From Phragmitibacter flavus (GTDB lineage: Bacteria > Verrucomicrobiota > Verrucomicrobiia > Verrucomicrobiales > Verrucomicrobiaceae), in NCBI RefSeq assembly GCF_005780165.1, contig NZ_VAUV01000005.1:62001-126000 (forward strand): 64,000 bases of DNA, given 5' to 3'. Both the position numbers and the translations under genes were made by a program. Positions 4,244 through 61,650 of the stretch are shown piece after piece (within the stretch, counting starts at the first letter, position 1; every line of letters begins with the position of its first letter). The notes beneath the pieces were generated by a model, which did not search any database, had not been told where the DNA came from, and saw only the letters and a list, made by a program, of their open reading frames with translations.

Positions 4244-7200
4244 TCAAGGTTTGTTTGCATGGCGTTTTACTTGGATGTCTTTGCGAAGGGTGTCCGACTG
4301 ATCTTCCGCGCCTTCATCTACCTGCACCGATGCTTGATTCTTGGTGATGTCGAGTGCCTCAATGATTTCCTGTTGCCGATTTCTGGCTGCACTGAGCTTG
4401 TCCTCGTGCTCGAAGGGCGACTGCACCTGGATGTTTAGAGCTTCCAGTTGATCCTTATGACGGCGAAGGTTGCTGTTGACCTCCTGAAGGTGCTTGTCGA
4501 GGCCATCCAATGCGTGTTCAAGTGAAGAGATGGTTCCCTGAGGACTTTCGCTCACTGTGGCTTCATAATTGTTCTTGCCGTGAATGCGGAGTTCAATGCG
4601 AGTATCCAACCTGCGCATGGAAATGGGGAACCCCGCGATGGAGCCGATCCGACCGGTGACCTGCAAAGGTTTGAGAGCGGCCCCGATGAACACCATTTTC
4701 CGCCCCGCCGTGAGACGGTCATCGAAGGATTGGTTCTCAATAGTCATGGAGAACTGGTCGCCGCGAGTGGGAGTGCGTGTGCGGATGTCTTGTTTGAGGT
4801 TTTCGGCAAGCTGCCCGGTTTCCTTGATTAGTTGCTTGGTGCGTTTGATGCGCAAGCGCATGGTGTGGACGCCATCCATGTGCTGCCGTTGAAGCCGGGT
4901 GAGGCGGATAACCTCAGCATCGATCTGAGCTTTCTCCATGACCATGGGGTTGCCGGAGGCGATGGCTTTGACCTCGGCATAACTTAAGGCTGTGGAATCC
5001 ACGTCTTCAGCCTTGCGCATGGAGGCGTCCCCAGTCATAACTTGGGCGATGAAACGGGCTTTGGTTTCCAGAGTTTGCCACATGTAGGCATCGAAACTTC
5101 CTTCCGTGACATAGCGGAAAACACTGACAAATTCGTTTTGATTACCCTGGCGAAGAATGCGTCCTTCACGTTGCTCGATGTCCGAGGGCCTCCATGGAGC
5201 GTCAAGGTGATGTAGGGCGATAAGGCGTTGCTGAACATTTGTGCCCTCACCCATTTTCAAGGTGCTGCCAAGCAGCACCCGCACGCGGCCTGCGCGGACG
5301 GACTTGAACAGGGCATCCTTTGCGGCATCGGTGTCGTGCTGCTGGATGAAAGCGATCTGCTCATCGGGAATGCCTCTGGCGACAAGCTTGTCGCGGATGT
5401 CGTCATAGACCGAAAATCCGCGTTTGCCTTTTTGCGGAGTAGATAAATCGCAGAAAACAAGCTGGGCATTGTTCCGGGTTGCGGATTCCAGCCAGATACG
5501 ATGGATTTTTTCCACGGCGAGATTCACCTTGGAATCGGGAGCATCGGCGGCTCCCGGAAACGCCAGCCGGATGTCCAGTGCAGCTAGTCTACCCTCGGAA
5601 GTAATCTTGAGCATGTTATCCTTTTTGGGGTCGATCTTGCCTCCCTTGACTTTTTCGGCACGCTTGACCAGTTGTTCGACGAACTTCTTCAACATGGGGC
5701 TGCAAGGTGCGCTTACGATGATGGCGTGCCCTGATTCCAGCTTCGGAATAGGGAGTTTGAGCATGTCTGCGGTTTGCACGTCGGCGGCTTGGCGGAACTG
5801 CTGCATGAGTTCGGGCACATTGACGAATCTGGCGAAGCGGTGTTGCATGCGATAGCCCGCTCCATCAGGACTCAATTCCATGGCGGTAACGGTTTCACCG
5901 AAGGTTCCCGCCCAAGAGTCGAAGTGCTGAAGTCCGTGGCGGCGCAAGGAAGCCATTTGCAGGTAACGCTGCATGGTGAACATCTCCGCCATCGTGTTGG
6001 AAATGGGGGTGCCGGTGGCGAACACCACGCCGCCCCCGTCGTTGCGGCGCTGTATGTGCTGCACCTTGAGAAACAAATCAAAGGCGCGTTCGGAGGCGGT
6101 TTGCGGTAGCCCGGCCACGCGGGTCATTTTGGTGACGTAAAAAAGGTTTTTGAACTTGTGGGCTTCATCAATGAACAGGCGGTCCACGCCCAATTCTTCG
6201 AAGGTGAGGGTGAGGTCCTTTTTCTTGTCTGCTGAGAGTGCCTCCAGTTTGACCTCAAGGCGCTTGCGAACGCGCTCCAGTTCCTTCACCAGCCGGGTGC
6301 CGCTGCGATCGGATTTCTGATCGCGGATGACCTCCTCTATCTCCGCAATCTGCGAAGAGATGAAATCTTTCCGGGCATGGGTAGATAGCGGGATTTTTTC
6401 AAAGCTGGAATGAGTGACGATGACGGCATCCCAGTTGCCGGTGGCGATACGGCTGAAAAGCTGGGCGCGTCGGGCAGCCTCGAAATCGTTCTTGCCAGCA
6501 GCAAGGATGGTGGCGTTTGGATAAAGGATGAGTAATTCGGTGGAGAACTGCGTGAGCATGTGATTTGGGACGACGAACATGGGTTTGGTTGCCAGTCCGA
6601 GACGCTTCATCTCGATGCCAGCCGCTACCATGCTGAAGGTCTTGCCCGCGCCGACAGCGTGGGCCAGCAGGGTGTTTTTGCTTTGGATGATGCGCCAAAC
6701 GGCGGCTTTCTGGTGAGGCCGCAAGCTGACATGGAGGCTGCTACCGGGCAGGGTCAGATGGCTGCCGTTGAAGACGCGCAGGCGCACGGAATTGAACTGG
6801 TCGTTGTATTGGCGGCACAGCCGTTCGCGGCGGTCATCGTCCTCCCATATCCAAGTCTTGAAGCGTTCTTTGAGCTTTTCCTGGCGGTCACGAGCGCCTT
6901 CCGTCTCAACGGAATTGACCACGAGGTTGCTCGACACGGTATCTTTGTCATAAACAGTGGGGGTTTTGAGATTGAGCGAATCCTGGATCAAGTCGAGCGC
7001 GGAATAGCGGGCGATGCCCCATTCGGTGGTGTTGGCGACAGATGACCTTGCCTGATTGCTGCCTCGCACAAACCAGATGCCCACCTGAGGGGCGTGGCTG
7101 ACCTCGACTTTTTCGCCACCCAAAAGTGATGAGGCAAAAGCGGCCACGTCTTGGGCGGGAATCCAAGCGGCTCCCAGCCGGGCTTCGATTTCTGAAGGTT

Positions 7201-9373
7201 TCAAATCCTCGGGCTGCACGGCTTGCAGCGCATCCACATTTTCCTGAAAACGATCATCGGCCGCTGCTGCTTGGCGAGCCAGCTTTAGCTTGTCACGAAC
7301 ATTCCCGAAAAGGTAATTGTCTTCGGTCTCCCAATGCCGTGTTTCGGGGTTGAGAAAAATCAGCCCCTTGAGTTCGGGCATTATGTCTGTCACGTCTTTT
7401 TGCAACAGCCCTGCCATGTGCTCCAGGTCCACTTTTGCGCGTTCATTGAGAGTGACGACAAGGGCATCCCTGGCGCTATCGGCATGGCGGACAGGAGCGG
7501 AGGCATGAATGGTGCGCTCACGGAAGATGGCGGCCTTTTTTGCTCCCTTGGAGTCTGGGCGGTAGTCCTCCAGCGAGCAGAGCAAGGGCGAATCGGGATC
7601 ACTACGAAACGCCCGACGGTTGGCGAGGGCATTGATCGGGCCGAAGCGTGAGACGAAGTGATCGTAGCGAATATGGAGTTGCTGGCGTGCGGCGAGAATG
7701 GCGGGTTCGCCGCTTTCCTCAAGTTGGGTTCGCAACACCTCCCTCAAGGCATCCCGCACTAAAATAAGGCCGCGAATACGGCGTGAGGCTTCGCCGGACA
7801 AGCCTTCAACCAGCACAAGATGATTCCCCTGCCGGGCAGTCACATGGCCGTCATGCAGGGCGAATCCCACTTCCTTGATTCCTTCGGGTGCGGGGAGACC
7901 TTCCCCGGCAACTTCATTGTCTGAGCACGATATTGCTAATTCCCGGTATATGCCCTGCGGCAGGCGAGCGACGGCCTCCTTCAAGGCCTCTTCGAGAGGA
8001 CGAGCATCAGGCACCAAGGCGGGTTCGCCGGGACCATACATGGTTGCTTCCTCGGCCATGTCGCCGCACATCATGTGGCGGCGTTCAGCGAAGTAGCGAT
8101 TGATCTCGAAGGTGACGCCTTGGGAATTGACATATTTCGCCAATTCACGCCAGTCGTGACCGCAAGGGCTTTCTCCATTTTCCAGCCGACGCAGAAAAAT
8201 AATATCGGTAGTGACTTCGGTGTTGGCGTTCTGCTTGAAGGCGGTGTTGGGCAGACGGATGGCTCCCAAGAGTTCCGCGCGTTCATGCATATAGTCACGC
8301 ACCCGGCGATCCGCCTTGTCCATCGTGCCCTTGGAAGTGATGAACGCGATGAGTCCTCCGGGGCGGGTTTTTTGCAGAGCCTTGGCGAAGAAATAGTCGT
8401 GAATGAGGAAACCATGCTTGTTGAATTCAGGATCGAAGACCTTGTAGTTGCCGAAGGGCACGTTGGAGATGGCCAGATCAAAGGCATTATCGGGGAGCCG
8501 GGATTGCTCAAACCCCTGTTGGCTGATGTGCGCACCGGGATAGAGCAGCCGGGCGATACTGGCGGTGGTGGCGTCGATCTCGACGCCGCTGAGTCGTGAT
8601 TGCTGGCGCATTGGCTCCGGCATCAGACCGAAGAAGTGGCCGATGCCGAGGGCTGGTTCCAAGATGTGGCCGTGAGTAAACCCCAAGCGTTGCACAGCGC
8701 CATAAATAGCTGAGACGATTGTGGGGGAGGTATAGTGTGCGTTGAGCGTGGATGCCTGGGCGGATCGATGTTCCTCCGGGGTGAGGAGTTCGCGGAGTCG
8801 TTCGCGCTCCTGCTGCCAAGTTTCGTCCTCGTGCGTGGCGAACACTTGGGGGATACCACCCCAACCGACATAACGGACCAAGGTTTGCTGCTCCTCGGCA
8901 GTGGCCTGCCGATTCTCCTTGCGGACGGCGTTAAGAACTTCGATGGCGCGGAAATTGGCCAGGCTTTTTTCCTTGAGCGAGCCCCCGCCGACGTTATCAT
9001 CGGGCAGGATACGATAATCGCTCGTGCCGTTTATTCGTCGGTTTCCGATGGCAGCAGGATGTAGCTCTCCCTGACCATTTCCCAAGCTTGAGCCTGTGCT
9101 TGCTGGACGGTCAGGCCCTGAGCTTCGAGTTTCGTTTCCAAATTCATCAGTTCGTCCAGTGTCCGCTCCTGCGCCTCGTAGAGAGCTTCTTGCAGTCTCC
9201 CCTCCGCCTCCAGTTCGCGCACCATCCGAGGGCGAAATTCCCTCCAGTGACGTTCGGCCATCAGTCCGTAGCCGGTGAGCGGGAAGGTCGTTTTCATGGG
9301 AGGCAAAGAGGTCGAAAAAGCTGAGTTGTTCAGCCGCTGGCTTTGCGGGTGACTTGCCATTGCGCTTTATCAT
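4244..9373 (-). CDS. Giant N6-methylase / SNF2-type helicase protein of conjugative elements
   Basis: A 1709-residue multidomain protein. After a low-complexity N-terminal linker, the family block NYR/DYRILPDDN-GGGSLKEK begins near residue 118. A methyltransferase-like domain follows, with ILEPALGIGHFFG (SAM site, about 237-249) and SNVPFG (NPPF-type motif, about 303). A superfamily-2 helicase follows: Walker A AVGAGKT (about 905), DEAH in LFIDEAHKF (about 1067) and motif VI QREGRILRQG (about 1400), then coiled coil. Proteins of this type occur on plasmids, phages and ICEs, and some (DarB-like) protect incoming DNA from restriction; that role here is inference. No Shine-Dalgarno is visible at the start. 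A second gene overlaps bases 9031-9297 in another frame, so the true start may be debated, but EQLSFFDLF near the N-terminus is typical of the family and supports 9373. Confidence 0.88.
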   Translation of the reverse strand: MIKRNGKSPAKPAAEQLSFFDLFASHENDLPAHRLRTDGRTSLEGISPSDGARTGGGGETARSSLRGAGADTGRTDEFGNETRSSGPDRPASTGSSLGNGQGELHPAAIGNRRINGTSDYRILPDDNVGGGSLKEKSLANFRAIEVLNAVRKENRQATAEEQQTLVRYVGWGGIPQVFATHEDETWQQERERLRELLTPEEHRSAQASTLNAHYTSPTIVSAIYGAVQRLGFTHGHILEPALGIGHFFGLMPEPMRQQSRLSGVEIDATTASIARLLYPGAHISQQGFEQSRLPDNAFDLAISNVPFGNYKVFDPEFNKHGFLIHDYFFAKALQKTRPGGLIAFITSKGTMDKADRRVRDYMHERAELLGAIRLPNTAFKQNANTEVTTDIIFLRRLENGESPCGHDWRELAKYVNSQGVTFEINRYFAERRHMMCGDMAEEATMYGPGEPALVPDARPLEEALKEAVARLPQGIYRELAISCSDNEVAGEGLPAPEGIKEVGFALHDGHVTARQGNHLVLVEGLSGEASRRIRGLILVRDALREVLRTQLEESGEPAILAARQQLHIRYDHFVSRFGPINALANRRAFRSDPDSPLLCSLEDYRPDSKGAKKAAIFRERTIHASAPVRHADSARDALVVTLNERAKVDLEHMAGLLQKDVTDIMPELKGLIFLNPETRHWETEDNYLFGNVRDKLKLARQAAAADDRFQENVDALQAVQPEDLKPSEIEARLGAAWIPAQDVAAFASSLLGGEKVEVSHAPQVGIWFVRGSNQARSSVANTTEWGIARYSALDLIQDSLNLKTPTVYDKDTVSSNLVVNSVETEGARDRQEKLKERFKTWIWEDDDRRERLCRQYNDQFNSVRLRVFNGSHLTLPGSSLHVSLRPHQKAAVWRIIQSKNTLLAHAVGAGKTFSMVAAGIEMKRLGLATKPMFVVPNHMLTQFSTELLILYPNATILAAGKNDFEAARRAQLFSRIATGNWDAVIVTHSSFEKIPLSTHARKDFISSQIAEIEEVIRDQKSDRSGTRLVKELERVRKRLEVKLEALSADKKKDLTLTFEELGVDRLFIDEAHKFKNLFYVTKMTRVAGLPQTASERAFDLFLKVQHIQRRNDGGGVVFATGTPISNTMAEMFTMQRYLQMASLRRHGLQHFDSWAGTFGETVTAMELSPDGAGYRMQHRFARFVNVPELMQQFRQAADVQTADMLKLPIPKLESGHAIIVSAPCSPMLKKFVEQLVKRAEKVKGGKIDPKKDNMLKITSEGRLAALDIRLAFPGAADAPDSKVNLAVEKIHRIWLESATRNNAQLVFCDLSTPQKGKRGFSVYDDIRDKLVARGIPDEQIAFIQQHDTDAAKDALFKSVRAGRVRVLLGSTLKMGEGTNVQQRLIALHHLDAPWRPSDIEQREGRILRQGNQNEFVSVFRYVTEGSFDAYMWQTLETKARFIAQVMTGDASMRKAEDVDSTALSYAEVKAIASGNPMVMEKAQIDAEVIRLTRLQRQHMDGVHTMRLRIKRTKQLIKETGQLAENLKQDIRTRTPTRGDQFSMTIENQSFDDRLTAGRKMVFIGAALKPLQVTGRIGSIAGFPISMRRLDTRIELRIHGKNNYEATVSESPQGTISSLEHALDGLDKHLQEVNSNLRRHKDQLEALNIQVQSPFEHEDKLSAARNRQQEIIEALDITKNQASVQVDEGAEDQSDTLRKDIQVKRHANKP
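9031..9297 (-). CDS. Small helical protein (TnpV-like) nested in the helicase gene in another frame
   Basis: An 88-residue protein starting at an ATG (9295-9297; an upstream ATG at 9360 is possible). It has a clear amphipathic helical pattern: GYGLMAERHWREFRPRMVRE, then LEAEGRLQEALYEAQERT, ending ESYILLPSE. This resembles the TnpV-like small proteins (LTEYGRMAE-HWREF...) that often precede large helicases on mobile elements. The helicase frame across the same bases gives Gly/Ser/Arg-rich low-complexity sequence. This frame has the higher G+C in third codon positions, as expected of real coding here. It ends where the conserved part of the helicase begins. Either the two genes truly overlap, or the helicase's first ~115 codons are misread. 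Function unknown. Confidence 0.6.
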   Translation of the reverse strand: MKTTFPLTGYGLMAERHWREFRPRMVRELEAEGRLQEALYEAQERTLDELMNLETKLEAQGLTVQQAQAQAWEMVRESYILLPSETDE

Positions 9374-9887: not shown

Positions 9888-10580
9888 ATGAACCCGCTGA
9901 ATCTATTTGCTTGGATAATATCGCTTGGTGTTCTCTGGATGGGTGCACCTGCTGCCCACTCACAGATGCTGGTTTACAAAGTGCTAATTGACGAAGGTAA
10001 AGGCATCAATTACCACGCTTATGATGGCGGCTATTTTGTGGCACCTGTGCTCGGTGGAAGCGGCTCCTTTTTGCTTACTAGCTCAGACAACCGGCGAATC
10101 TACGTGGAAGCCACCGACAGCGGCCGTCTGTTCACTGCGGTGAATGACAATTCCAAGAAGGCGGTGGTTTCGGCCACCACTGGAACGGGGACGGCTTCCG
10201 GGGCGATGCTGGCGTATGGCGAGGTGAATCATCGGATTCACGTCAGCGGAAGAACTGCGGATTTGCATGTGCGAGTTGCCAAGAACCTTAGTGGCACGGC
10301 GCTGAGTTCCAACGACGAGAGCGAAGTGGAAGCCCCGACCACGAATCGAAGTTTGGGGGTGGCGGGAATTTCGACTTTCAAACTGAATTTGGATGAGAAT
10401 GCAACACGTCGTGCGAACCAGGACGGGCTTTCAATGGCGCAAACAATGGAGCAGCTAAAGCTCGCGCTGGAACGGGAAGGATATAGCAACGCCGATGCAG
10501 GTGAGGACGACGAAGATGGAGGTGGAGATGGCGAAGATGACGACGAAGGCGAAGATGACGATGAAGGTGAAGATAATTGA
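9888..10580 (+). CDS. Secreted protein with a highly acidic Asp/Glu/Gly tail
   Basis: A 230-residue unrecognised protein. The chosen ATG (9888) gives a clean Sec signal peptide, MNPLNLFAWIISLGVLWMG, ending at APAAHS. An upstream start at 9849 would spoil it. The mature part is beta-rich with Gly/Ser/Thr. The last ~30 residues are almost only Asp, Glu and Gly (DDEGEDDDEGED), which could bind divalent cations or be disordered. It ends at 10580 just before gspE and is probably co-transcribed with gspE and gspF. Position makes it either a substrate or an accessory of the type II secretion machine. I do not assign a function. Confidence 0.75.
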   Translation: MNPLNLFAWIISLGVLWMGAPAAHSQMLVYKVLIDEGKGINYHAYDGGYFVAPVLGGSGSFLLTSSDNRRIYVEATDSGRLFTAVNDNSKKAVVSATTGTGTASGAMLAYGEVNHRIHVSGRTADLHVRVAKNLSGTALSSNDESEVEAPTTNRSLGVAGISTFKLNLDENATRRANQDGLSMAQTMEQLKLALEREGYSNADAGEDDEDGGGDGEDDDEGEDDDEGEDN

Positions 10581-10600
10581 GGGTTTCACCATTTATCGCC

Positions 10601-12340
10601 ATGAACGTTCTTTTGCAATCTGCCAGTCATGCAGGTGTGGCCGATATGGAGGCGGTCACCCTGGTGGTGCGCGAGGCGGCGGTTTGTGGGCAGTCCCTGG
10701 TGGACACGGCATTGACGAAGCTGCCCTTGGATGAAGCTGAATTTTTACACGACCTCGCCAGAAGGTTTCAATGGGACTGCCAAAACTCTCTGAAACCGGA
10801 TGTGGGCTCGGCTGCCGAACTTAAGCAGGCTTGCCCGGCGCGTCTGGCGCTAAGGCATCGATTGCTGCCGCTGAAATTGGAGAGCCGCCGCGTCGACCAT
10901 GAGACAGGTCACGAGGAAACCCCGATCCACAAGGTGTTGACGGTGGCCTGTTATGATCCGTTTGATCTGGTGGCGCGTCAGGCCGTTTCCCGCATGGTGC
11001 CGATGCAGGTGCGCTGGTGCCTTGCTCCGCGGAGCGAGATATTGAGAGGCATCCAGGCGTTTTATGGCGTGGGCGCGGATACTTTTGATGATCTCCTCAA
11101 AAATCGTGCCCAAGATGATGACGACAGCCACATGCGGGATGAGGCAAACGTCATTGATGCGGACGATGATGACGCTTCCGTGGTCAAGTTCGTCAACCAG
11201 ATCATCCGAGAGGCATTGGGGCAGCGGGCGACGGACATTCATGTGGAGCCATTGCATGACAATCTGCGGATCCGTTATCGGATTGACGGTGAGCTGCACG
11301 AAGTGCCGGTGCCGGAGAACATCAAAACCTTGCAGGCGTCGTTGTTGGCCCGCATCAAGGTCATGGCAAAGCTGGATATTGCGGAGAAACGTTTGCCGCA
11401 GGATGGCCGCATCAACCTGAAGCTGGACAACCAAAGCATCGACGTGCGTGTGGCATGCATCCCAAGCGTGGAAGGAGAAAGCATCAGCCTGCGCCTGCTG
11501 GGACAGGAACGTTTCACCCTCGACAAGCTGGGGCTGACGCCTGATTACCGGGACAAGATCGACCAATTATTGGCGAAACCGAACGGCATCATCTTGGTGA
11601 CGGGCCCGACCGGTAGTGGAAAAAGCACTACGCTCTACACTTGCCTCTCGCACTTGAACAAAGTAAACCGGCGCATTGTCACCATTGAAGACCCGGTGGA
11701 ACACAAGCTTTCCGGGGTGGTGCAGATTGCGGTCAAGCCGGAGATCAACCTGACCTTTGCCAGCGGGTTACGCAGTATTTTGCGCGGTGATCCTAATGTG
11801 GTGATGGTGGGGGAAATTCGTGACCTTGAAACCGCAGAAATCGCCGTGCGTGCTTCGCTGACAGGACACCTGGTGTTTTCCACTCTGCATACCAACGACG
11901 CGGTGGGCGGCATCACGCGGTTGGTGGAGATGGGGGTGGAACCCTTCCTTGTTAGTTCTTCGGTGCGGGCCTTCGTCGCCCAACGTCTGGTGCGCTCGCT
12001 TTGTCCTCACTGCAAAAAGCCGGTGCAATACAGCACGGATCAACTGAACGCCTGTCAGTTTGGCGAGGCCATTGGCAAGACCATCTATGGGGCGGACGGT
12101 TGCCAAGCCTGCCGGGGAACTGGACATCACGGACGGCTGGCGATTTATGAAATGGTCATCATCAGCCCTACCTTGCAGGACATGATTTCGCGCAGGGCGA
12201 GCGGCAATGAACTATTAAAACAGGCACGCAAGGAAGGGTTGATTTCCATGCGTGAATACGGCTGGCGCAAGGTGCTGGAAGGCGTGACCACGGTTGAGGA
12301 AGTGATGAGGGTCACCAGTGAGGACTTCTTGGATGAATAA
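10601..12340 (+). CDS. gspE: Type II secretion ATPase GspE
   Basis: The cytoplasmic hexameric ATPase that drives pseudopilus assembly. The ATG at 10601 gives 579 residues; a TTG at 10577 overlapping the previous stop is the alternative. Visible motifs are Walker A GPTGSGKSTT (about 335-344), Asp box TIEDPVEHK, Walker B region VMVGEIRDLETAEIA, His box GHLVFSTLHTNDA, and a zinc-binding pair CPHC (about 468) / CQAC (about 502). The N-terminal domain is shorter and more divergent than in proteobacterial GspE. gspF follows 24 bases later. Paralogous PilB ATPases are similar, but the neighbouring gspD, gspG-K, gspL and gspM genes favour type II secretion. Confidence 0.93.
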   Translation: MNVLLQSASHAGVADMEAVTLVVREAAVCGQSLVDTALTKLPLDEAEFLHDLARRFQWDCQNSLKPDVGSAAELKQACPARLALRHRLLPLKLESRRVDHETGHEETPIHKVLTVACYDPFDLVARQAVSRMVPMQVRWCLAPRSEILRGIQAFYGVGADTFDDLLKNRAQDDDDSHMRDEANVIDADDDDASVVKFVNQIIREALGQRATDIHVEPLHDNLRIRYRIDGELHEVPVPENIKTLQASLLARIKVMAKLDIAEKRLPQDGRINLKLDNQSIDVRVACIPSVEGESISLRLLGQERFTLDKLGLTPDYRDKIDQLLAKPNGIILVTGPTGSGKSTTLYTCLSHLNKVNRRIVTIEDPVEHKLSGVVQIAVKPEINLTFASGLRSILRGDPNVVMVGEIRDLETAEIAVRASLTGHLVFSTLHTNDAVGGITRLVEMGVEPFLVSSSVRAFVAQRLVRSLCPHCKKPVQYSTDQLNACQFGEAIGKTIYGADGCQACRGTGHHGRLAIYEMVIISPTLQDMISRRASGNELLKQARKEGLISMREYGWRKVLEGVTTVEEVMRVTSEDFLDE

Positions 12341-12364
12341 ACGCAGAACATCGCGAGATTGATC

Positions 12365-13624
12365 ATGTCTTCCTTTCACTACGAAGCCATTTCTTCCTCT
12401 GGCGAACGCAGCAACGGCGTTTTGGAGGCATCGGACCGTGGAGAGGTGATGCGGTTGTTGGCACGTCGGGGCTTGCAGCCCTTTGCCATTCATGACGCAG
12501 TGGAAATGACGGATCGGAAGACGTCCTCCGATAAGAATAAGGGCAAGAGCGAAAAAGCGGTGCGCACGGCAAAGGCCACTGGTATCAAGCTTAGTCGTGC
12601 ACAGGTGATCCAGTTCACTGAGGAATTGTGCGACTTGTTGGGAGCCGGATTGCAGTTGGAACAGGCGTTGCACGCGATGGAGAATCGAAGCGCGGCTTCG
12701 TCGCGAGACACTGCCTCAAGCTTGCGGGCGAGAGTCAGGGATGGGATGCCCTTTTCCACAGCACTGGCACAGGTTAGCCCGTCCTTTGGCGAATTGTATT
12801 GCAATCTGGTTTCTGCCGGGGAGGCCAGCGGTGCTTTGGCTCCCATCCTGCAACGGCAAGTGCGATATCTGAATCAAATGGAAGCCCTCCGTTCAAAGGT
12901 GACAGGAGCGTTGATCTATCCGGCGTTTATCGTGTTTTCAGGCGTTGCGCTGGCCATTGTGTTCGTGACTTATTTGCTGCCCAAACTGGCGGTGCTGGTG
13001 AAAAACACGCAAGGCAAACTACCGCCCGTCGCGCAGTGGATGCTGGCGGCCAGCGATGTGTTTCGTGGTTGGTGGTGGCTGCTGTTGATGTTGGTCGTGT
13101 TGGCTGCCGTGACCATTCGTGTGCTGCTGCAGGACAAAGCCCGGTTGCTGTGTTGGCATCGCATCAAGTTGACGCTTCCCATTTACGGTCCCGTCTTGCG
13201 CAGTCGATTTGAAGTGCAGTTTCTTGAAACCTTAGGCAACCTGCTGGTCAACGGCCTACCGCTCAACCGTGCATTGGAATTGGTCAAACGTGCCACCATG
13301 AATCTGTTCCTACGTGACCGTTTGAGCGCGGTGGAGGCTATGGTGGGCGATGGCGGCTCATTGAGCCGGGCGCTGGAAAAGACCGAAGTGGCGAGGCCAC
13401 TGGTGGTGGACATGATCAAGGTCGGCGAGCAGACCGGTGAGATGGCGGAAACCCTGCAAAAAGCGGCGACACGGTTTGATAACCAGTTGAGCAAGCTCAT
13501 TGACAGGGCCGCATCATTGATTCAGCCAGTGATCGTGCTGGTGATGGCCGTGGGCGTAGGGATCATGGCCTGGATGATGGTGAGCGTGGTCTACGGAACC
13601 ATGGAAAATCTGCGGCATCGATGA
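12365..13624 (+). CDS. gspF: Type II secretion inner-membrane platform protein GspF
   Basis: A 419-residue polytopic protein that couples the GspE ATPase to the pseudopilus. It starts SSFHYEAISSSGERSNGVLE, the typical GspF/PilC opening. It contains two copies of the T2SSF domain: the first has FTEELCDLLGAGLQLEQAL and FSTALAQVSPSFGELY, the second has QFLETLGNLLVNGLPLNRAL. Three hydrophobic segments lie at about residues 185-210, 235-255 and the C-terminus (VIVLVMAVGVGIMAWMMVSV). Length is normal for the family (about 400). It follows gspE by 24 bases and ends that block; no prepilin peptidase follows. Confidence 0.93.
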   Translation: MSSFHYEAISSSGERSNGVLEASDRGEVMRLLARRGLQPFAIHDAVEMTDRKTSSDKNKGKSEKAVRTAKATGIKLSRAQVIQFTEELCDLLGAGLQLEQALHAMENRSAASSRDTASSLRARVRDGMPFSTALAQVSPSFGELYCNLVSAGEASGALAPILQRQVRYLNQMEALRSKVTGALIYPAFIVFSGVALAIVFVTYLLPKLAVLVKNTQGKLPPVAQWMLAASDVFRGWWWLLLMLVVLAAVTIRVLLQDKARLLCWHRIKLTLPIYGPVLRSRFEVQFLETLGNLLVNGLPLNRALELVKRATMNLFLRDRLSAVEAMVGDGGSLSRALEKTEVARPLVVDMIKVGEQTGEMAETLQKAATRFDNQLSKLIDRAASLIQPVIVLVMAVGVGIMAWMMVSVVYGTMENLRHR

Positions 13625-15570: not shown

Positions 15571-18500
15571 TCAAGCTGCGCTAGCCGTCTGTGGCATCGC
15601 CAAAGCATTCAAGCGCAAACGGACATCCTCGACGAATGGCCTTTCGAGAGAGTCGTAGCCTTCCAAGTCATCTAGGGACTCCTCCGCAAGTTCCGACAGT
15701 TCCCGGTCATCGCGCAAATGATGGACATTTAACGATGCGGCTGCCAGGAGATAGTAATGAATCAAACGAGCGTTGCGATATCCTTGGGTTATGGGGAGCA
15801 AGAGGCCTTGCCGGAGTATATAAAGAATATGATCAGCCGGAAGAATGCGTCTGCGATCAGCTAGCCAATAATGGGATGGCAAGAGAGCTTTTTTGCGCGA
15901 GTTGTTGATTTCACAAACCTCGCAGAGCACTTTCATTTTTAGGACATATAGGCGATTCCACCACCAGGAGGAGCGCTCGACATCCTGAAGATTGTTCTCG
16001 GCTGTTTCCAGACATGCCCAAGCCTGATCTAGCAAGCAACAATGCTTCTGGTCGTGAATCGGGCACTTCTGGGTGCTGAGCGCTCCTTGGCCGAATTGGG
16101 AGCGGATTAGGAAGAACTTTGAAACAAACACCTCTGCCTGCCGCAAGGCAACTATGGCCCATTCACTTGGGTCTCCAGCGAAATGCTTTGAATTGTTCAG
16201 GTAAGCGAGTGCCTCATTCAGTTTGCGCGTCGCCTCATTGTCTCTTCCGAGCATACCGAGGCTAAGTCCGTAAATGACCCGTGAGCGCAAATTAGCCCAT
16301 TCAAACGCTTCACAGTTTTGCAGACTCAATTGACGCGACAGCCGGATTGCGACCATGCATTGGGCGCAGATGTGAGCCCAAAGACTCCGAGCTATGGAAT
16401 CTGCTTCGTGCGAGTGAACGTCTTTCGATTCGAGTTTACGCACGCGGGTGCGCGTCAAGAATTCAAAATGTTGCCAGCGATAAGCACGTTCGACGTTAAT
16501 CTGCGCACCGAGAATGATGAGTCGAATCAGGCGGGCTATTGAGTTGCCGGTTCTGTTTTCTTTTGGAGCCGTGGCCCACCAACGATCAATAGTTGAGCGA
16601 ACCAGAAGAGGACTGGGGCGAACTTCCTCACAATTTTTGTGTGCGAGCAATATCTGAAGAGCTTCCTCATCGAAACCCTCCACATAGTTTTTGAAGTCTT
16701 TTGCAAGATTTTTCGCGCGTTGAAGCGGTGCCCCTTGCAAATAGAGGCTGTCGCTGTCTGAGCAGGAAGGGGCACCTTGGAGGTTGGAACGTAACCCTTC
16801 CCAACGCACTTGCATGAAGAAGCCATCCCCTTGAGCAGACTTGATCATGTTGATTATGCGTTGAATCTGGCTTCGCAACATCGTCCAGGGAATATTCTGC
16901 TGCCCTTCGCAGGTATCATTGCTCAGCCCTGTCTCCTGAATTTCCAGCCGCAGCCGTTCAAACAAATCGTCCTCGATTCCCCAAAAGATAATCACATCCT
17001 CGGACAGACGAAGAATCTTACTGAGTTGATTGAATGCAATTTCAGCAAGTAGTTCTTTGTAGCGCGAGGAGGATTTCCCTTCATCGCCGCACAAATCATT
17101 ATCCATTTGGGGTGTTGGCTTGGCTTCTGATATCCAGTGGAGACATTGGACATAATGATAAAGGCATTCAACTAGGGGAACTGGATCGTGTGATGCCTGA
17201 GTTGCCTTGAAATACCATTCAGCAATCCACATATGGGTTCGAGCACGTCTGGCGCGGAGGCTTCTGCGAATCGCACCCTTGTCCTTCAGAATGTCCTGTT
17301 CGTCAGCTTCGTATTGTTCACACCAATGAGCGATACGGATGCGCAAGTCCCAATGGAGCCAGAAGAAGGACGCCGCTTTCATTCTAAAGAGGCCGAAACC
17401 GTGGAGTTCCCTGCTCCATTTCTCAGCCAGCAGAGAGCGTTGTGCATCCCGATCCGTGCCGGACGCCGCATCAAAACGATTGTTGCAGTCCATCACGCCT
17501 TCAGCCCACATGGAGCAAGGATGGCGAGACTGGCGGAAAAGGCAAAGCGCATATAGAAAGCGAACTCGCAGGAGCTTGGTATCGAATTGGTTGCCCGTTG
17601 CTTCGGATACCCAATCCTTGAGTCGCTCGACTATTTTTTCGCTATGAATCAGGCCGGGATATGAATCTGAGTCTTTGATGAGATAGCCGGGTTCACTGGA
17701 GGAGGCATGATGTATTTCACGTAGTAGTTGTTCGTCGCATTGGACTTTATCCTTGATGAGTTCCCATGTCTTTTCCCGGACGGCAAGATCAAGCTGCAAT
17801 TCATCTGCAATGACGTGCGCAGGCTTGGCTTCCTGCTGCTTAGTTGACATGCTAGCCAAATGTCTGGCAACCAAGTCACGCCGATAGCTGGCAAAGGGCA
17901 GGTAAACAATGCTTATTCCGACGGAACAAAGTTCATCAAACAGTATATGAAGCTCGTTGTAGTCTTTGTCGGTCCAATGCTGTAAGCTAAATGCCGCATT
18001 GACTCCGGGAGGCGTGCGTCCTGAAACAAAAATGGTCACCTTTTGATGATCGAGACGCAAGTATCTGCGTAGAATTTTCTGCTGTTTTCTAGTGGCACTT
18101 GCATAGGCAATTGGTTCCATGCGGAATGAACCAAGACGATTGGCCACGCTCTGCCACAACACTCGCTTCAAGTGCTTAACAGTGATAAAATCACCCAATT
18201 CATACCACGCATAACCATCAATCTTATGTGTGTCCCTCCAGAAATATTGGGAACACAAAGAGGACAAGCCTGATCCGCCGTAAATAACGAGCTTGGGGGA
18301 TGCCTTGCCTGGAGCCACATGCTCATGATTCACACAGTGAATCAGATAGTTTCCGTCGTACTCACCGGCATGCAGAAGGGACAGCTTGCCCGCAAGGGAC
18401 TCGTTCAGATTATCAATGAACTGCGCAACGACGTTCACAGACTTCTTTGATTTCGGTTCATCTGTCAGCTTGCTGTTTTCCCTTCCCGATGGAACTAGAG

Positions 18501-19722
18501 GATGTGGAGGAACGAAATGAGCATATTCGTATCGGAGTCCGCCTGGAGGCAGCGTATGAGTGATTTTTTGATACAATTCAAGGAGAAATAGGTCAGGGCG
18601 AGGTTCAATTGCGGAATAAAAAAAGGCGCTGTCTTCCGATTCCAATTCGAGCTTTCTGATGACGCTTTTTTCGCCTTTTTCGCTATGAGCTAGCCAAAAT
18701 ACCTTCAGGGTCATTCCGCTGTCTTGCAGACGCGACTGCTGAATAGCATATTTTAAGAGATGCCGCACTCTGCCATCATTAAGCGAATATCCCATCACAA
18801 TAAGGCAACACTTTGAGCGAACAATGCCACTATCTTCCGGGCCTACCATGTAGGAATAGAATCTTTCGCAATCTTCTTGCGTGGGCCTCTGGTCGACCGA
18901 GTAATCGGCCCTGGTTTCAAACATGCCACCATGTAGTTTCACGATGGTGTCTTGAAGACGGACAATTTTCGCATCGGGAAGGCCTCCACTGATACTGACA
19001 TCGAAAACTTGTAGATGTGATTTATTGGTGGTGAACGCCTGCTCAATCAGTTCGTCGAAATTGGTCGTAAGTACCGTATGAATGCGCAGTGGCATCGCAA
19101 GGTTGGCGAGCATCTGATGGATCAAGCTGGGCCGCCTTCCCTTCGTCACAAAGACGTTATAGGCATCTAAGACCGCCTGATTGGGGGCGCCTAGAGATGG
19201 AGTCTTGTCATTTTTTTCCCTGTATATCCTGCAAATAAAGACAAGTGCCGATTTCCATTCCGAACAAGCGCCCAATGCTTCCGCGACAAGTCTGCTCTTA
19301 TCGGTTTCCCTCCGGTTGCTGGCTTTTTCAGAGGGCGAAGGATTCTTCAACCTACTCATAAAGGAAAGTAAATCAGTTTCCCAACGACGCAGCGATTCAC
19401 CCTGTTCGATGGTCGGATAAGGAGGCCAGCCGTTGGCAACGAAATTCCAATAATCGGACTGTCGTTCAGATCCCTGTTCAGACACTTTGTCGCAAATAAG
19501 AGTTTCAATGGCAGCGTCATCGCTCGGAGAATTGGGGTGAGCGACGGGTATGCCTACACCTCTAAAAACAGCCCACTTGAGATATTCGATGAATTCCTGT
19601 CCTCGGGGGATTCCTGATCTGCTTGAACATCCGCTGCCTAGGAATGGAACAAAGTCATATCCTTCTCTTACAGCCTTAACTAGTTCCGCCATGAATGCTT
19701 CGCGCGGTTCGATCTTTTCCAT
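15571..19722 (-). CDS. Giant SIR2-domain protein, SIR2-STAND-like candidate antiphage sensor
   Basis: A 1383-residue protein (ATG at 19722; a GTG at 19770 would add 16 residues). Residues about 20-330 form a SIR2-like NADase domain: VPFLGSGCSSRSGIPRG (NAD pocket), TTNFDELIE, KLHGG with the putative catalytic His, and VMGYSLND. A STAND-like centre follows at about 475-620, where KLVIYGGSGLSSLCS has the shape and place of a P-loop but lacks the essential Lys, with VTIFVSGRTPPG after it. The last 700 residues are Trp/Leu-rich helices of TPR-like character. The architecture resembles Avs5-type and other SIR2 antiphage proteins, which destroy NAD+ on phage sensing; this is family inference. Base composition is visibly lower in G+C than the gsp genes around it, suggesting acquisition by transfer. 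Confidence 0.82.
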   Translation of the reverse strand: MEKIEPREAFMAELVKAVREGYDFVPFLGSGCSSRSGIPRGQEFIEYLKWAVFRGVGIPVAHPNSPSDDAAIETLICDKVSEQGSERQSDYWNFVANGWPPYPTIEQGESLRRWETDLLSFMSRLKNPSPSEKASNRRETDKSRLVAEALGACSEWKSALVFICRIYREKNDKTPSLGAPNQAVLDAYNVFVTKGRRPSLIHQMLANLAMPLRIHTVLTTNFDELIEQAFTTNKSHLQVFDVSISGGLPDAKIVRLQDTIVKLHGGMFETRADYSVDQRPTQEDCERFYSYMVGPEDSGIVRSKCCLIVMGYSLNDGRVRHLLKYAIQQSRLQDSGMTLKVFWLAHSEKGEKSVIRKLELESEDSAFFYSAIEPRPDLFLLELYQKITHTLPPGGLRYEYAHFVPPHPLVPSGRENSKLTDEPKSKKSVNVVAQFIDNLNESLAGKLSLLHAGEYDGNYLIHCVNHEHVAPGKASPKLVIYGGSGLSSLCSQYFWRDTHKIDGYAWYELGDFITVKHLKRVLWQSVANRLGSFRMEPIAYASATRKQQKILRRYLRLDHQKVTIFVSGRTPPGVNAAFSLQHWTDKDYNELHILFDELCSVGISIVYLPFASYRRDLVARHLASMSTKQQEAKPAHVIADELQLDLAVREKTWELIKDKVQCDEQLLREIHHASSSEPGYLIKDSDSYPGLIHSEKIVERLKDWVSEATGNQFDTKLLRVRFLYALCLFRQSRHPCSMWAEGVMDCNNRFDAASGTDRDAQRSLLAEKWSRELHGFGLFRMKAASFFWLHWDLRIRIAHWCEQYEADEQDILKDKGAIRRSLRARRARTHMWIAEWYFKATQASHDPVPLVECLYHYVQCLHWISEAKPTPQMDNDLCGDEGKSSSRYKELLAEIAFNQLSKILRLSEDVIIFWGIEDDLFERLRLEIQETGLSNDTCEGQQNIPWTMLRSQIQRIINMIKSAQGDGFFMQVRWEGLRSNLQGAPSCSDSDSLYLQGAPLQRAKNLAKDFKNYVEGFDEEALQILLAHKNCEEVRPSPLLVRSTIDRWWATAPKENRTGNSIARLIRLIILGAQINVERAYRWQHFEFLTRTRVRKLESKDVHSHEADSIARSLWAHICAQCMVAIRLSRQLSLQNCEAFEWANLRSRVIYGLSLGMLGRDNEATRKLNEALAYLNNSKHFAGDPSEWAIVALRQAEVFVSKFFLIRSQFGQGALSTQKCPIHDQKHCCLLDQAWACLETAENNLQDVERSSWWWNRLYVLKMKVLCEVCEINNSRKKALLPSHYWLADRRRILPADHILYILRQGLLLPITQGYRNARLIHYYLLAAASLNVHHLRDDRELSELAEESLDDLEGYDSLERPFVEDVRLRLNALAMPQTASAA

Positions 19723-19832
19723 AGATTGGTTGATGATGAGCGTTAGTTGATTGGCTGGTCGGATAAGCACGTTTTGCGGATAAAATTTCGAGCTTAGTCT
19801 TCGTATTTTTGAGTGATTGAGCGATACCTTTG

Positions 19833-19947: not shown

Positions 19948-22272
19948 TCAGCGTTTGGTTGTGCTTGGGGTGGATTTCGCTTTTCCAGTGGACTTCTGTT
20001 TTATGCCCGGCTCAACAGCTTGCGCTTTTGAAGCGTCTGAGTCCTCTTTCCATTCCGGAAGGGGGAGAAGGGGAGTTCCGTCGCCGGGATTCGCGAATTC
20101 CTGGGTGCGTTGGTAGCTGCGGCTGTCGCGATTGAGGTCGGTTTGTTCCTGGATGTGGTCCGCTCCGTCGTTGAGGATGCGCGGTTGCACGAAGATCATC
20201 AACTCGCGGCGCTCCTTGGTTTTGTTAGTGCTTCCAAACAGGTGTTTCACGACGGGGATGCGAACCAGAAATGGCAGTCCGCTCTTGGCTTTGCGGTCGC
20301 GCTCGGTGATCAATCCGCCGAGCATCACCGTGGTGCGGTCGGGCACGATGAGCCTGTTACGCATGCCCTGTTCAGAGATGTTGGGAATTTGGTTGCCGCT
20401 GATGGTGGTGAAACCACTGATGTCGTTGTTCTGCTGCTGGAACTCCAGCATCACCTCGTTGTTGTTGTAGATGTGCGGTGTGATGTCCAGTTGCAGACGC
20501 ACGGGGATGTATTGAGTGGTAGAGCGAATGGTGTTGCCGGAATCGAGATTGTTCACGGAACTGAGCGTTTCGCCAGGGATGGCAAGTTGTTGGCCGATAT
20601 AGATGGTGGCGGATTGATGGTTCAGCGTGGTGATGGTCGGCTTTTGCAAGATGTGGAAGCGTTCGGTCTTTTCCAGCGTTTGCAGGAACACGTTCCAATG
20701 CTTGCCGATCTGACCATAAACCGTCAATCCGTCCAGCGCGGGCAGGAAGTCGGCGGCGCCGCCAAGTTGAGAAATGTCGGTGAATGCGGTGCCCTGGGTG
20801 TTGAGCACGCCGCCCAAAAGGCTGTCGTTGCCCACGTTTTCAAGGGTGCGAATCCAGTCGAGGCCAAAGTTAAAATCTTCTCCGACGGTGAACTCGCCGA
20901 TGATGACGGAAAGCAGGATTTGTTTGGGCCGCACGTCCAGTTCGTCAGCGAGTTGTTCCAGCATGCGAAGCTGGTCGGGAGGACCGCTGGCGTAAAAACG
21001 GGAACTGCCGGGATCGACAATCACCAGGGTCTTGGAAACCAGCACGCTATAAGCCTTCTTGGTGACATCGAGTGGCTCCACGCCGCCAAATCCGAAGCCG
21101 CTGGAAGCTGACCCACCGCTTCCGCCCAAGCCCAAGCCGCCGCCGTCGAGCCCAGAGCGGCCTGTGCCACGATTGCCGAAGCCGCCGCTGGTGTTGGAAG
21201 GTTCGACTGGTGTGGTGCTGGTGGTGGTTTGGGGGGTGATCGACTCTCCGGCCTCCTTGCTGTTTCGTTGCAGGGACTTCTCGGCGATGGAAACGAAAGT
21301 CGTGAGGTCAATGTAGTTGAGCTTGCGCGAAATGAACCCGCTGGTGGGAGATTCGCCATCAAGGTAGGCAATCAAACTTTCGATGTATTGAATGTCCAGA
21401 GGGCGGGCGATGATGACCAGACTGTTGGTGCGCTCAACCGGCTGGATGATGGGCTTGATGGCCTTGGTGGACATGCCTGCAAAGGAGGCGACGGTTTGTG
21501 GGGCAGCAGCTTCTTCCGCCGTCGGCTGGCGGCTGGTCGGGCGTTCGCGCTCGGTGGGGGCACGGGTTCCGGAAGCGGAAGCCGTTTCCAATCCCAACAA
21601 AGTGGAAAGCTGTTCGGCGACCACTTCAGCATCGGCGCGGGTCAGATGCACCAGATGGTGTTTCGTTTCACTCGGTGGAAGATCCACCTGAGCCGCCAGT
21701 TCGACATAAGAGCGAATGGTGTTGGAGTTCTCGGTGATGAGCAGTGCCTGGGCATTGGGCACGGCGGTGATCTTTCCATACGAATGAGGCGGAACGACCT
21801 GCGCAAAGGCACGTGCGGCTTCGTCGGCATCCAGGTAACGCAGGGGCAGAAGGTAGTTGACCACCTGGTCGCTCTGCGGGAGGTCGGCCTCGCGCAGGAT
21901 CATCGGCACCCCTTCGCTGGCGGGAAGTTTGTCGCCGGAAATGACGATGACCTTGATCATCTGGTCGCCGCTGGGAACGAGGGCATAGCCAGCCAGCAGC
22001 AGCGATTTTTCGATGAACTCGATGGCCTCGGGGGGGCTGAGCTTTCCGGTGGTTTCGATGTTAACTACGGCGGCTTCCAGAGCAGTATCGCGGATAAGAC
22101 GTTTGCCGGTGAGGCGTTGATAGGTATTGAGCACCTCGCCAATCGGAGTTCCCGGCGGAAACTGCACCGCGATGGACTCCGGCGAGTCCGGTGAGGGTGC
22201 GTTATTTTGCGCATGAACGCCCGCCAGCAGCAGGGATGCGACGACGCACAAATAAAAGGATCGGCAAAACAT
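19948..22272 (-). CDS. gspD: Type II secretion secretin GspD
   Basis: A 774-residue outer-membrane channel protein with a signal peptide (MFCRSFYLCVVASLLLAGVHAQ). N0/N1-like modules follow: VNYLLPLRYLDADEAARAFA, ITAVPNAQALLITENSNTIR and RTNSLVIIARPLDIQYIESL. A Gly-rich insert lies around 370-395. The C-terminal secretin domain has LSVIIGEFTVGEDFNFGLDW, VPDRTTVMLGGLITERDRK and SGLPFLVRIPVVKHLFGS. The C-terminal tail is Lys/Ser-rich. It is the last gene of a reverse block (L-M-C-like-D) that starts near 24596. PilQ-type secretins are related, but the neighbours make GspD the better name. Confidence 0.93.
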   Translation of the reverse strand: MFCRSFYLCVVASLLLAGVHAQNNAPSPDSPESIAVQFPPGTPIGEVLNTYQRLTGKRLIRDTALEAAVVNIETTGKLSPPEAIEFIEKSLLLAGYALVPSGDQMIKVIVISGDKLPASEGVPMILREADLPQSDQVVNYLLPLRYLDADEAARAFAQVVPPHSYGKITAVPNAQALLITENSNTIRSYVELAAQVDLPPSETKHHLVHLTRADAEVVAEQLSTLLGLETASASGTRAPTERERPTSRQPTAEEAAAPQTVASFAGMSTKAIKPIIQPVERTNSLVIIARPLDIQYIESLIAYLDGESPTSGFISRKLNYIDLTTFVSIAEKSLQRNSKEAGESITPQTTTSTTPVEPSNTSGGFGNRGTGRSGLDGGGLGLGGSGGSASSGFGFGGVEPLDVTKKAYSVLVSKTLVIVDPGSSRFYASGPPDQLRMLEQLADELDVRPKQILLSVIIGEFTVGEDFNFGLDWIRTLENVGNDSLLGGVLNTQGTAFTDISQLGGAADFLPALDGLTVYGQIGKHWNVFLQTLEKTERFHILQKPTITTLNHQSATIYIGQQLAIPGETLSSVNNLDSGNTIRSTTQYIPVRLQLDITPHIYNNNEVMLEFQQQNNDISGFTTISGNQIPNISEQGMRNRLIVPDRTTVMLGGLITERDRKAKSGLPFLVRIPVVKHLFGSTNKTKERRELMIFVQPRILNDGADHIQEQTDLNRDSRSYQRTQEFANPGDGTPLLPLPEWKEDSDASKAQAVEPGIKQKSTGKAKSTPSTTKR

Positions 22273-58143: not shown

Positions 58144-58560
58144 TTATTTTTCTATGCGTAGGGTTCTGGTGGAGCCGGGAGGAAACAGGGCGCCATCGGG
58201 CGTCTGTGCCGGCAGTGGAAACTGATAGAGGCTGACCTCTTCTTCGAATCCGTGGCCAGCGGCCTTCTTTTGCTGGTCCACGAGCAGCCAGTATTGCTGC
58301 TTCACCGCATCGCTGCGGCCTTTGTCATAACCTTCGGTATAGGATTTCTTTGCCTTTCCGTCTTGGGCATGGTTGATGGCTTCGCCCAACAAAAATCCGC
58401 CGCCTGCACTGGCGGCGGTGACCAGTGGATTGCCGTCGCTGAGACTGTGACCAAGTGCCGCGCCTCCGGCGGCTGCAAGGGTGCTGGTGACAAGACGGGA
58501 GGTGCTTGAGCAACTCGTGGAAAAAAGGGCGATGCCGATGGAAAGAAGGATGAGTTTCAT
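58144..58560 (-). CDS. Glycine-zipper lipoprotein of the T4SS operon (TrbH-like)
   Basis: 138 residues. The ATG at 58558-58560 gives the lipoprotein signal LILLSIGIALFSTSC (lipobox STSC). A Gly/Ala-rich membrane-inserting segment follows (LAAAGGAALGHSLSD and ASAGGGFLLGEAINH, glycine zippers). Then comes a small soluble part ending in LFPPGSTRTLRIEK. IncP TrbH has the same lipoprotein and glycine-zipper layout, so it may play the VirB7 role of anchoring VirB9. It overlaps VirB4 by ATGA. Longer upstream readings are rejected. Confidence 0.68.
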   Translation of the reverse strand: MKLILLSIGIALFSTSCSSTSRLVTSTLAAAGGAALGHSLSDGNPLVTAASAGGGFLLGEAINHAQDGKAKKSYTEGYDKGRSDAVKQQYWLLVDQQKKAAGHGFEEEVSLYQFPLPAQTPDGALFPPGSTRTLRIEK

Positions 58561-61304: not shown

Positions 61305-61650
61305 GTGAGTCAGAGTGGAGCGGATGCTCCGGTTGATGTTGCGGGTCGGGGCTGAATCCGGCACCGTTCAGCCAGCCGTCCAGCAGGTCGCGGTCATATC
61401 CGGGAGGTTTTCCTTGGCGGAAACCGAACACATAAATGAAGGAGAGTGTCAGCGGCACTGCTGCCAGCACCGCTGACGCTTTGAAGCTCCAACGCATTGC
61501 GCTGAAGCAGAGCAACAGCGTGAGCACGGCGATGAACACGCCGAAGACGACATGCCAGAACAGATTACCTTCCAGCCCCCAAGTGCGCCCGGCTGAATCC
61601 TCGGCGCTGTTGGTTTCCGTCAGGCGAAGTTCAGAGGAAGCGTCTTTCAT
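61288..61650 (-). CDS. T4SS VirB3/TrbD-like membrane protein
   Basis: 120 residues with two adjacent hydrophobic helices (LFWHVVFGVFIAVLTLLLCF and AVLAAVPLTLSFIYVFGF), a short charged N-terminus and a His/Pro-rich tail. VirB3 proteins have this plan and lie between VirB2 and VirB4, as here. It overlaps VirB2 by four bases and VirB4 by 17. Confidence 0.72.
   Translation of the reverse strand: MKDASSELRLTETNSAEDSAGRTWGLEGNLFWHVVFGVFIAVLTLLLCFSAMRWSFKASAVLAAVPLTLSFIYVFGFRQGKPPGYDRDLLDGWLNGAGFSPDPQHQPEHPLHSDSHGTFQ

Follow-up and report, generated by a model that had tools for sequence, protein, structure and literature searches.

A TnpV-related small gene nested in a second frame of DarB-like methylase-helicase genes in Phragmitibacter flavus, phages and plasmids

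Introduction

A small gene lying inside another one, on the same strand and in another frame, is found in many phages in the form of Rz1, which is nested in Rz. Here we describe a gene pair of comparable layout in the verrucomicrobium Phragmitibacter flavus, on a stretch of 64,000 nucleotides (contig NZ_VAUV01000005.1, positions 62,001 to 126,000; hereafter the window): a giant gene encoding a DarB-like methylase-helicase and, within its 5' part, a small gene encoding a protein related to TnpV. The two products are unrelated to Rz1 and Rz, the host frame gives only a linker in the shared stretch, and the layout is shared by phages, plasmids and bacterial chromosomes. Among long same-strand overlaps in bacteria, phase 1, a shift of one nucleotide, is the commoner class according to PMC2542354; the present overlap falls into the same phase class but differs in that a whole gene is nested and has been kept over great divergence. 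Few long overlapping genes are considered fully established in prokaryotes (PMC9927249). Such cases are usually argued from one genome, whereas this one can be tested over more than 100 divergent loci.

The closest described relatives of the giant are the DarB-like antirestriction and polyvalent proteins that combine a methylase with an SNF2 helicase (Iyer, 2017; PMC5512222), and this dyad is common to the window giant. DarB of phage P1 is a protein of the virion head that shields DNA from type I restriction (PMC5512222), and the DarB-like giant of phage JC1 is likewise virion-associated (PMC9144972). TnpV (PF14198), on the other side, is known from Tn4451-type and other mobile elements of Firmicutes; in the parts of the literature consulted its genes are ordinary small genes, whereas here the gene sits inside a helicase gene in another frame. 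Neither "TnpV" nor "overlapping" occurs in the main text of PMC5512222, and no description of an overlap between TnpV and a DarB-like helicase was found in the literature searched, subscription papers lying outside its scope. Nested genes, TnpV and DarB-like proteins are thus each known; their union did not turn up in this literature.

Results and Discussion

The Gene Pair and Its Frames

The gene pair occupies the minus strand of the window as follows.

4244-9373, minus strand: host gene, DarB-like adenine methylase / SNF2-type helicase, 1709 residues, open through the small gene
9298-9373, minus strand: 5' end of the helicase gene before the small gene (MIKRNGK...EQLSFFDLF); start conserved in relatives
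9031-9297, minus strand: nested small gene, TnpV-like four-helix protein of 88 residues, ATG start, stop included, +1 relative to the helicase frame
9031-9297, minus strand: dual-coding stretch, in which the helicase frame is a stop-free linker rich in Gly, Ser, Arg and Thr

An earlier reading made from the sequence alone (the sequence-only reading) had placed an 88-residue frame at 9031-9297 inside a helicase frame, and its coordinates and frames are correct, 4244-9373 (minus strand) being a single open frame of 1709 codons. The overlap itself is thereby confirmed. Because the small ATG lies 76 nucleotides downstream of the helicase start, the small-gene codons run one base after those of the helicase. 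The statement that no in-frame helicase start lies between them stands for ATG and GTG, neither of which occurs within the overlap, but a TTG is present at 9085-9083 (helicase residue 97). In the +1 frame of the window helicase gene the longest stop-free runs measure 183, 135, 117 and 111 codons, the last being that of the small gene; since three longer runs exist in the same alternative frame of the same gene, we discarded the length of the open reading frame (ORF) as evidence. The ORF alone being within chance, the case is carried by conservation, selection and start signals in relatives, and on these grounds we consider it very probable that the small gene and the methylase-helicase gene form a nested, dual-coding pair.

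Conservation of the Nested Arrangement

We collected 129 helicase loci, drawn from Verrucomicrobiota, from phages and plasmids and from IMG/VR contigs, and searched all three forward frames with an iterative profile seeded with 12 proteins of the window family. A small ORF was detected in 109 of the 129 in the first pass (104 of 124 once five second copies of a contig were removed), and in 108 of these 109 it is nested on the same strand in phase +1. The comparison of homologues proposed by the sequence-only reading thus favors overprinting. This broad sample came from a helicase alignment, and it includes the best 80 of 480 relatives from an IMG/VR search made with the helicase only, 67 of which carry the small ORF in the first pass. 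More sensitive profiles recovered a small ORF, in the same phase, in five of the 20 first-pass negatives (clearly in L044 and L131, weakly in L061, L119 and L125). These profiles also revealed one in phage BcepIL02 (L141), its +1 phase following from the coordinates, and detected none in darB of P1.

On named genome contigs the window small protein was detected at 11 loci, all with verrucomicrobial titles, and it is present in three of 57 related genomes and eight of 387 genomes of the phylum, its own genome counted in both; a profile search detected it at 12 IMG/VR loci. The window and 11 relatives (L004-L012, L014, L016) agree in layout: 64-82 nucleotides separate the conserved helicase ATG from the small gene, which is nested in the helicase frame in the +1 phase. 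The contig of L013 ends within the small gene. In three loci (L008, L009, L016) the helicase is broken downstream by an early stop, a frame change or an internal deletion and the nested small ORF is intact, so that the small protein may be kept without the helicase. Farther afield, the helicase frame of viral contig L003 extends without a stop for at least 3973 codons, and relatives of the L003 small protein were found in 21 phage records, the hosts being Klebsiella, Erwinia, Pseudomonas, Vibrio, Sinorhizobium, Ochrobactrum, Agrobacterium and Microcystis. A tblastn search of plasmids with the window small protein gave no match, nor did any relative emerge when viral sequences were scanned twice with TnpV proteins of Firmicutes.

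TnpV genes that stand alone served as a control. In six of them (L134, L135, L136, L143, L144, L145), which have no helicase match in the fetched flanks of 1.6-3 kb, the frame equivalent to that of the helicase is never open (0/6), against seven of seven TnpV genes with a helicase (L043, L051, L137, L138, L139, L140, L146); L138 and L139 repeat elements of L044 and L040, and L046, in which the two genes are adjacent, was set apart.

Selection in Both Frames

Constraint was measured in 34 disjoint pairs chosen by helicase divergence alone, after removal of seven duplicate or near-duplicate rows; all were drawn from a list limited to 55-98.5% helicase identity, and the identity of their small proteins goes down to 26%. 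Four-fold degenerate sites of the helicase frame had changed in 60 of 983 cases inside the overlap (6%) and in 2800 of 6318 outside (44%), and the change was lower inside in all 34 pairs. A wider cut of 36 pairs gave the same picture (60/1003 against 2964/6540). Earlier runs (35 pairs including second copies of contigs, 32 without) had required more than 45% small-protein identity, which favors the result. As the silent sites of the helicase are the second codon positions of the small gene, and these seldom change, the small protein is under strong purifying selection.

Selection in the helicase frame takes another form. The four-fold sites of the small frame changed in 270 of 770 cases, the figure being 177 of 456 at sites where a change could not create a stop; in the 23 pairs of the 32-pair run that lie outside the verrucomicrobial type, they changed less than sites outside the overlap (163/494 against 1927/4281). 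The helicase frame is open in all 96 distinct small genes, where 42.7 would be expected from synonymous permutation of the small gene or 10.8 from helicase codon usage, while the other forward frame is open in two of 96 (expected 1.2 or 6.7). The small frame, for its part, is open in 101 of 101 (expected 30.2 or 56.2). At small-frame four-fold sites followed by AA, AG or GA, T was found in none of 542 cases, compared with 89 of 992 in safe contexts. Openness is clearly what is selected in the helicase frame. Its amino acids in the overlap drift as a linker rich in Gly, Ala, Arg, Ser and Pro, with 65% G/S/P/A/R/T against 42% in the helicase domain. Both frames are hence under selection, as the synonymous-site comparison suggested by the sequence-only reading was meant to reveal: strongly in the small frame, and as stop avoidance, with weak or absent amino-acid constraint, in that of the helicase. 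Since the pair holds up when phase, selection and start signals are tested, it offers a clean example from nature of a small and a giant gene sharing DNA, in which one frame folds and the other need only stay open.

Start Signals and Annotation

We defined a Shine-Dalgarno (SD) motif as GGAG, GAGG, AGGA or AAGG placed 5-15 nucleotides before a start, the small start being picked in favor of the motif in loci and controls alike. Outside the verrucomicrobial type the motif precedes the small start in 76 of 82 loci, compared with 200 of 1721 for the control, a best-of-n choice among starts in the same frame at other places of the helicase genes. Both starts of the window pair are without an SD motif, and initiation there must presumably use another route.

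The nested gene has often escaped annotation. None of the 21 phage records lists a separate small gene under the match; in 18 of these rows the feature bears the name of the giant. Both rows of phage Itty13 name a hypothetical protein, encoded on the opposite strand in the record examined, and one row of phage PBC5 names orf33. In this Pseudomonas phage (L038, NC_070969.1) annotated genes cover the DarB-like open frame on the opposite strand, and the giant itself appears to be unannotated. The small gene is thus missing from the examined phage records with DarB-like giants, and work on DarB-like antirestriction proteins should look for a second product.

Plasmids in which TnpV is recognized present the reverse situation, annotation cutting the helicase short. 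The helicases of Monoglobus and Selenomonas plasmids are annotated as starting only after the annotated TnpV, though the helicase frame runs through the TnpV gene. NZ_OY725736.1 (L043) and NZ_CP017043.1 (L137) have a helicase annotated from downstream of TnpV with the frame open through it, and these two gene models are likely truncated.

Relation of the Small Protein to TnpV

The small protein had been called TnpV-like from its sequence, and the resemblance is real, but the window copy falls short of formal membership: it matches PF14198 with an E-value of 5.1e-4 and 20.4 bits, the gathering cut-off of Pfam being 27 bits. For this reason we call it TnpV-related. Its nested relative L043 clears the cut-off with 140 bits, and PF14198 is matched at E <=0.01 by 21 of 35 and 29 of 50 proteins in two alignments, the former including the adjacent gene of Acaryochloris. 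The iterative window-family profile reaches the annotated TnpV genes of L043, L046 and L051, which establishes homology through intermediates, and a mixed alignment supports a continuum between nested proteins and TnpV, nested proteins matching PF14198 at up to 3e-41.

The predicted structure of the window protein has four helices (mean predicted local distance difference test score, pLDDT, of 92.2), which bears out the better protein character attributed to the small frame. A nested TnpV of the Firmicutes type (L114; mean pLDDT 90.8) is modeled with the same four helices, as judged by their order and similar lengths, plus a less confident N-terminal hairpin that the window protein does not have. 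A structure search of the PDB listed 14 chains, none at E <=0.001. Closer comparison gave a best Z-score of 4.7 (2apl; 57 residues, root-mean-square deviation 2.4), within the range of common helical arrangements, and the best hit of a sequence profile against the PDB was a designed helical repeat (0.0011). No solved structure is therefore convincingly similar. PADLOC has no family for the small protein. Its best match in BFVD is Q8W6J4_2 (E 6e-4), probably a protein of Sinorhizobium phage PBC5. A match to PHROG 938, named "endolysin", was set aside, since it falls near the end of the profile; the gene arrangement of PBC5, described below, is probably its source.

The Methylase-Helicase

The host protein combines an adenine methylase and a SWI2/SNF2 helicase in one chain and carries the motifs NVPFG, GAGKT and DEAH, in agreement with a DarB-like assignment; SNF2 and ResIII match above the Pfam cut-offs, the methylase families below theirs. 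In tblastn comparisons it shares 38-47.5% identity, across 90-95% of its length, with the plasmid and phage homologues among the matches listed (40 out of 2120 records for plasmids and 20 out of 125 for phages), several of which are annotated as "DarB-like antirestriction". Its motifs lie as follows.

9314-9328, minus strand: QLSFF, helicase residues 16-20
8855-8866, minus strand: GWGG, close to the start of the conserved methylase-helicase region that follows the overlap
8450-8464, minus strand: NVPFG, at the place of methylase motif IV
6638-6652, minus strand: Walker A motif GAGKT of the helicase
6158-6169, minus strand: DEAH box of the helicase

QLSFF resembles a sliding-clamp-binding motif, and the pattern QL-x-(L/F)-F is present at the N-terminus of the helicase, shortly ahead of the small gene, in 17 of 20 loci of the verrucomicrobial type. 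At the place of methylase motif IV, 19 of these 20 loci have NVPFG or NIPFG and the remaining one does not include the region; the 109 non-verrucomicrobial loci, some of which repeat one contig, have mostly NPPFG (52) or NVPFG (46).

Weighing of Alternative Explanations

Several observations weigh against a conserved dual-coding pair. Taken alone, the window ORF does not stand out by its length, and its frame would be open with a probability of 0.73 in view of the helicase's amino acids and codon usage (0.09 when its own codons are permuted). Small starts of the window clade have an SD motif in only two of 20 cases, and no such motif precedes the helicase start in 13 loci of this clade. In nine verrucomicrobial pairs of the 32-pair run the small-frame four-fold sites changed as fast as sites outside (99/254 against 681/1723), so that beyond stop avoidance we see no sign that the linker sequence matters in this clade. 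The loci are related, and their counts are not independent events. A small ORF remained undetectable in 15 loci, three of which (L054, L070, L130) have little upstream sequence, near contig ends. Finally, in the Acaryochloris plasmid (L046) the small gene is adjacent to the helicase and in another phase. Genes side by side were what the sequence-only reading had named as telling against overprinting; they were found in this one locus, which shows that an alternative arrangement exists and does not undo the conserved overlap elsewhere.

If the small ORF were a by-product of base composition and codon bias and no gene at all, its unexceptional length among the alternative-frame runs of the window helicase would be accounted for, but neither the purifying selection on its second codon positions nor the homologues annotated as stand-alone TnpV genes nor the confident predicted fold would be. 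The selection test has already refuted this explanation for the family, and we give it a negligible probability for the window. It is also very unlikely that only the small gene is real in the overlap, the helicase being translated from a start beyond the small stop and the upstream frame being passively open. The helicase starts annotated downstream of TnpV in the two plasmids and the nearly unconstrained helicase-frame amino acids in the verrucomicrobial overlap would agree with such a start. The frame is nonetheless open in 96 of 96 small genes, at most 42.7 being expected, T is absent wherever it would form a stop, and that frame does not stay open in any of the six TnpV genes that lack a helicase match. 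Moreover, in phages PEp14, Mwe-JY07, LASTA and BcepIL02 the region before the small gene and the helicase form one annotated coding sequence, and a relative, gp69 of phage JC1, was detected as a virion protein (PMC9144972).

The sequence-only reading had left a frameshift joining two genes as its other option. We rejected a sequencing frameshift at 9290-9373, since the frames at this point agree in the 11 verrucomicrobial relatives examined in which both genes are present. A programmed or accidental frameshift that fuses the small ORF to the helicase or to upstream domains, without an independent start, has some support in Sinorhizobium phage PBC5 (L118, L147): the upstream part of the giant runs in the small-gene frame, unlike in its close relative L090, and one PBC5 record is annotated in this way, with an orf33 that follows the small-gene frame to just past the small gene and a helicase, orf23, that starts farther on. 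The match of PHROG 938 near its profile end points the same way. PBC5 is, however, the only such case noticed, and was the only place where one was looked for; in most viral loci the helicase frame is unbroken for thousands of bases upstream, and the small gene has its own start with an SD motif in 76 of 82 loci. Slippery sites of the form X_XXY_YYZ, counted in the small frame only, occur near the end of the small gene in four of 101 cases and near its beginning in three of 101, so that no conserved slippery sequence marks the junction. We regard such a fusion as most improbable. Overprinting, the first option of the sequence-only reading, is favored by the constant phase in 108 of 109 loci, by constraint in both frames and by the lack of enrichment of slippery sites.

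Expression, Origin and Possible Function

For the dual-coding pair we propose that ribosomes starting at the upstream ATG (9373) would read the methylase-helicase straight through, the overlap forming a flexible, poorly conserved linker, and that ribosomes starting at the internal ATG (9297), one base out of phase, would make the 88-residue, four-helix TnpV-related protein. What sequence comparison brings out is a fixed phase, a small protein under purifying selection, a helicase frame that avoids stops, and SD motifs at most internal starts of phages and plasmids; from this we infer that both products are made in this organism, from one message.

In a tree of 121 helicases the nested state is found throughout (100 rows) and the negatives are scattered; 15 changes are needed, seven of them forced by well-supported branches, with the later-recovered negatives still counted as negative. 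Since the phase is constant over such divergence, a single old overlap with losses would fit. TnpV exists alone and the helicase frame has little amino-acid constraint, which suggests that the tnpV-like gene may be the older frame, over which the helicase frame would have been laid by extension toward its 5' side or by fusion.

That nesting was kept across phages, plasmids and chromosomes suggests a functional link to the helicase. Our tentative guess is that the small protein may be a co-expressed accessory of the methylase-helicase, such as a regulator, a chaperone or a subunit. More broadly, it is conceivable, although we would not call it probable, that DarB-like antirestriction methylase-helicases of phages, plasmids and integrated elements have in the nested TnpV-like protein a conserved subunit or regulator that has stayed hidden, its gene having been locked inside that of the helicase before the phage and conjugative versions diverged. 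If so, the two would be inherited and delivered together, and existing descriptions of the DarB-like systems in this branch would lack one component. The authors of the JC1 study state that they found no homologues of the additional antirestriction proteins of P1 in that group (PMC9144972), a picture with which a hidden accessory protein inside the gene of the giant would fit. Slightly less likely, in our view, than the accessory role is that the small protein acts as an excision or DNA-binding factor of the mobile element, with a function unrelated to the helicase. TnpV of Tn4451 was postulated to take part in excision through homology with Xis of lambda (PMC3158075), which is a postulate only, and stand-alone TnpV genes do exist with no helicase in the fetched stretch. 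The predicted all-helical fold, with no convincing match in the PDB, neither supports nor excludes DNA binding, and the retention of the gene inside the methylase-helicase of phages, plasmids and chromosomes speaks against an unrelated role. By tying the obscure TnpV family to a methylase-helicase, the nested arrangement makes its function testable.

Surroundings of the Gene Pair

Beyond the 5' side of the helicase gene, the window contains type II secretion genes (T2SSE, T2SSF and secretin) at 10577-13624 on the plus strand and at 19948-22272 on the minus strand. At 15571-19770 (minus strand) lies a gene for a protein of 1399 residues whose SIR2-like domain is similar to those found in defence proteins (Pfam, PADLOC). 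A TraC/TraG-like conjugation ATPase is encoded at 58557-61364 (minus strand), which suggests that the window holds part of a conjugative element.

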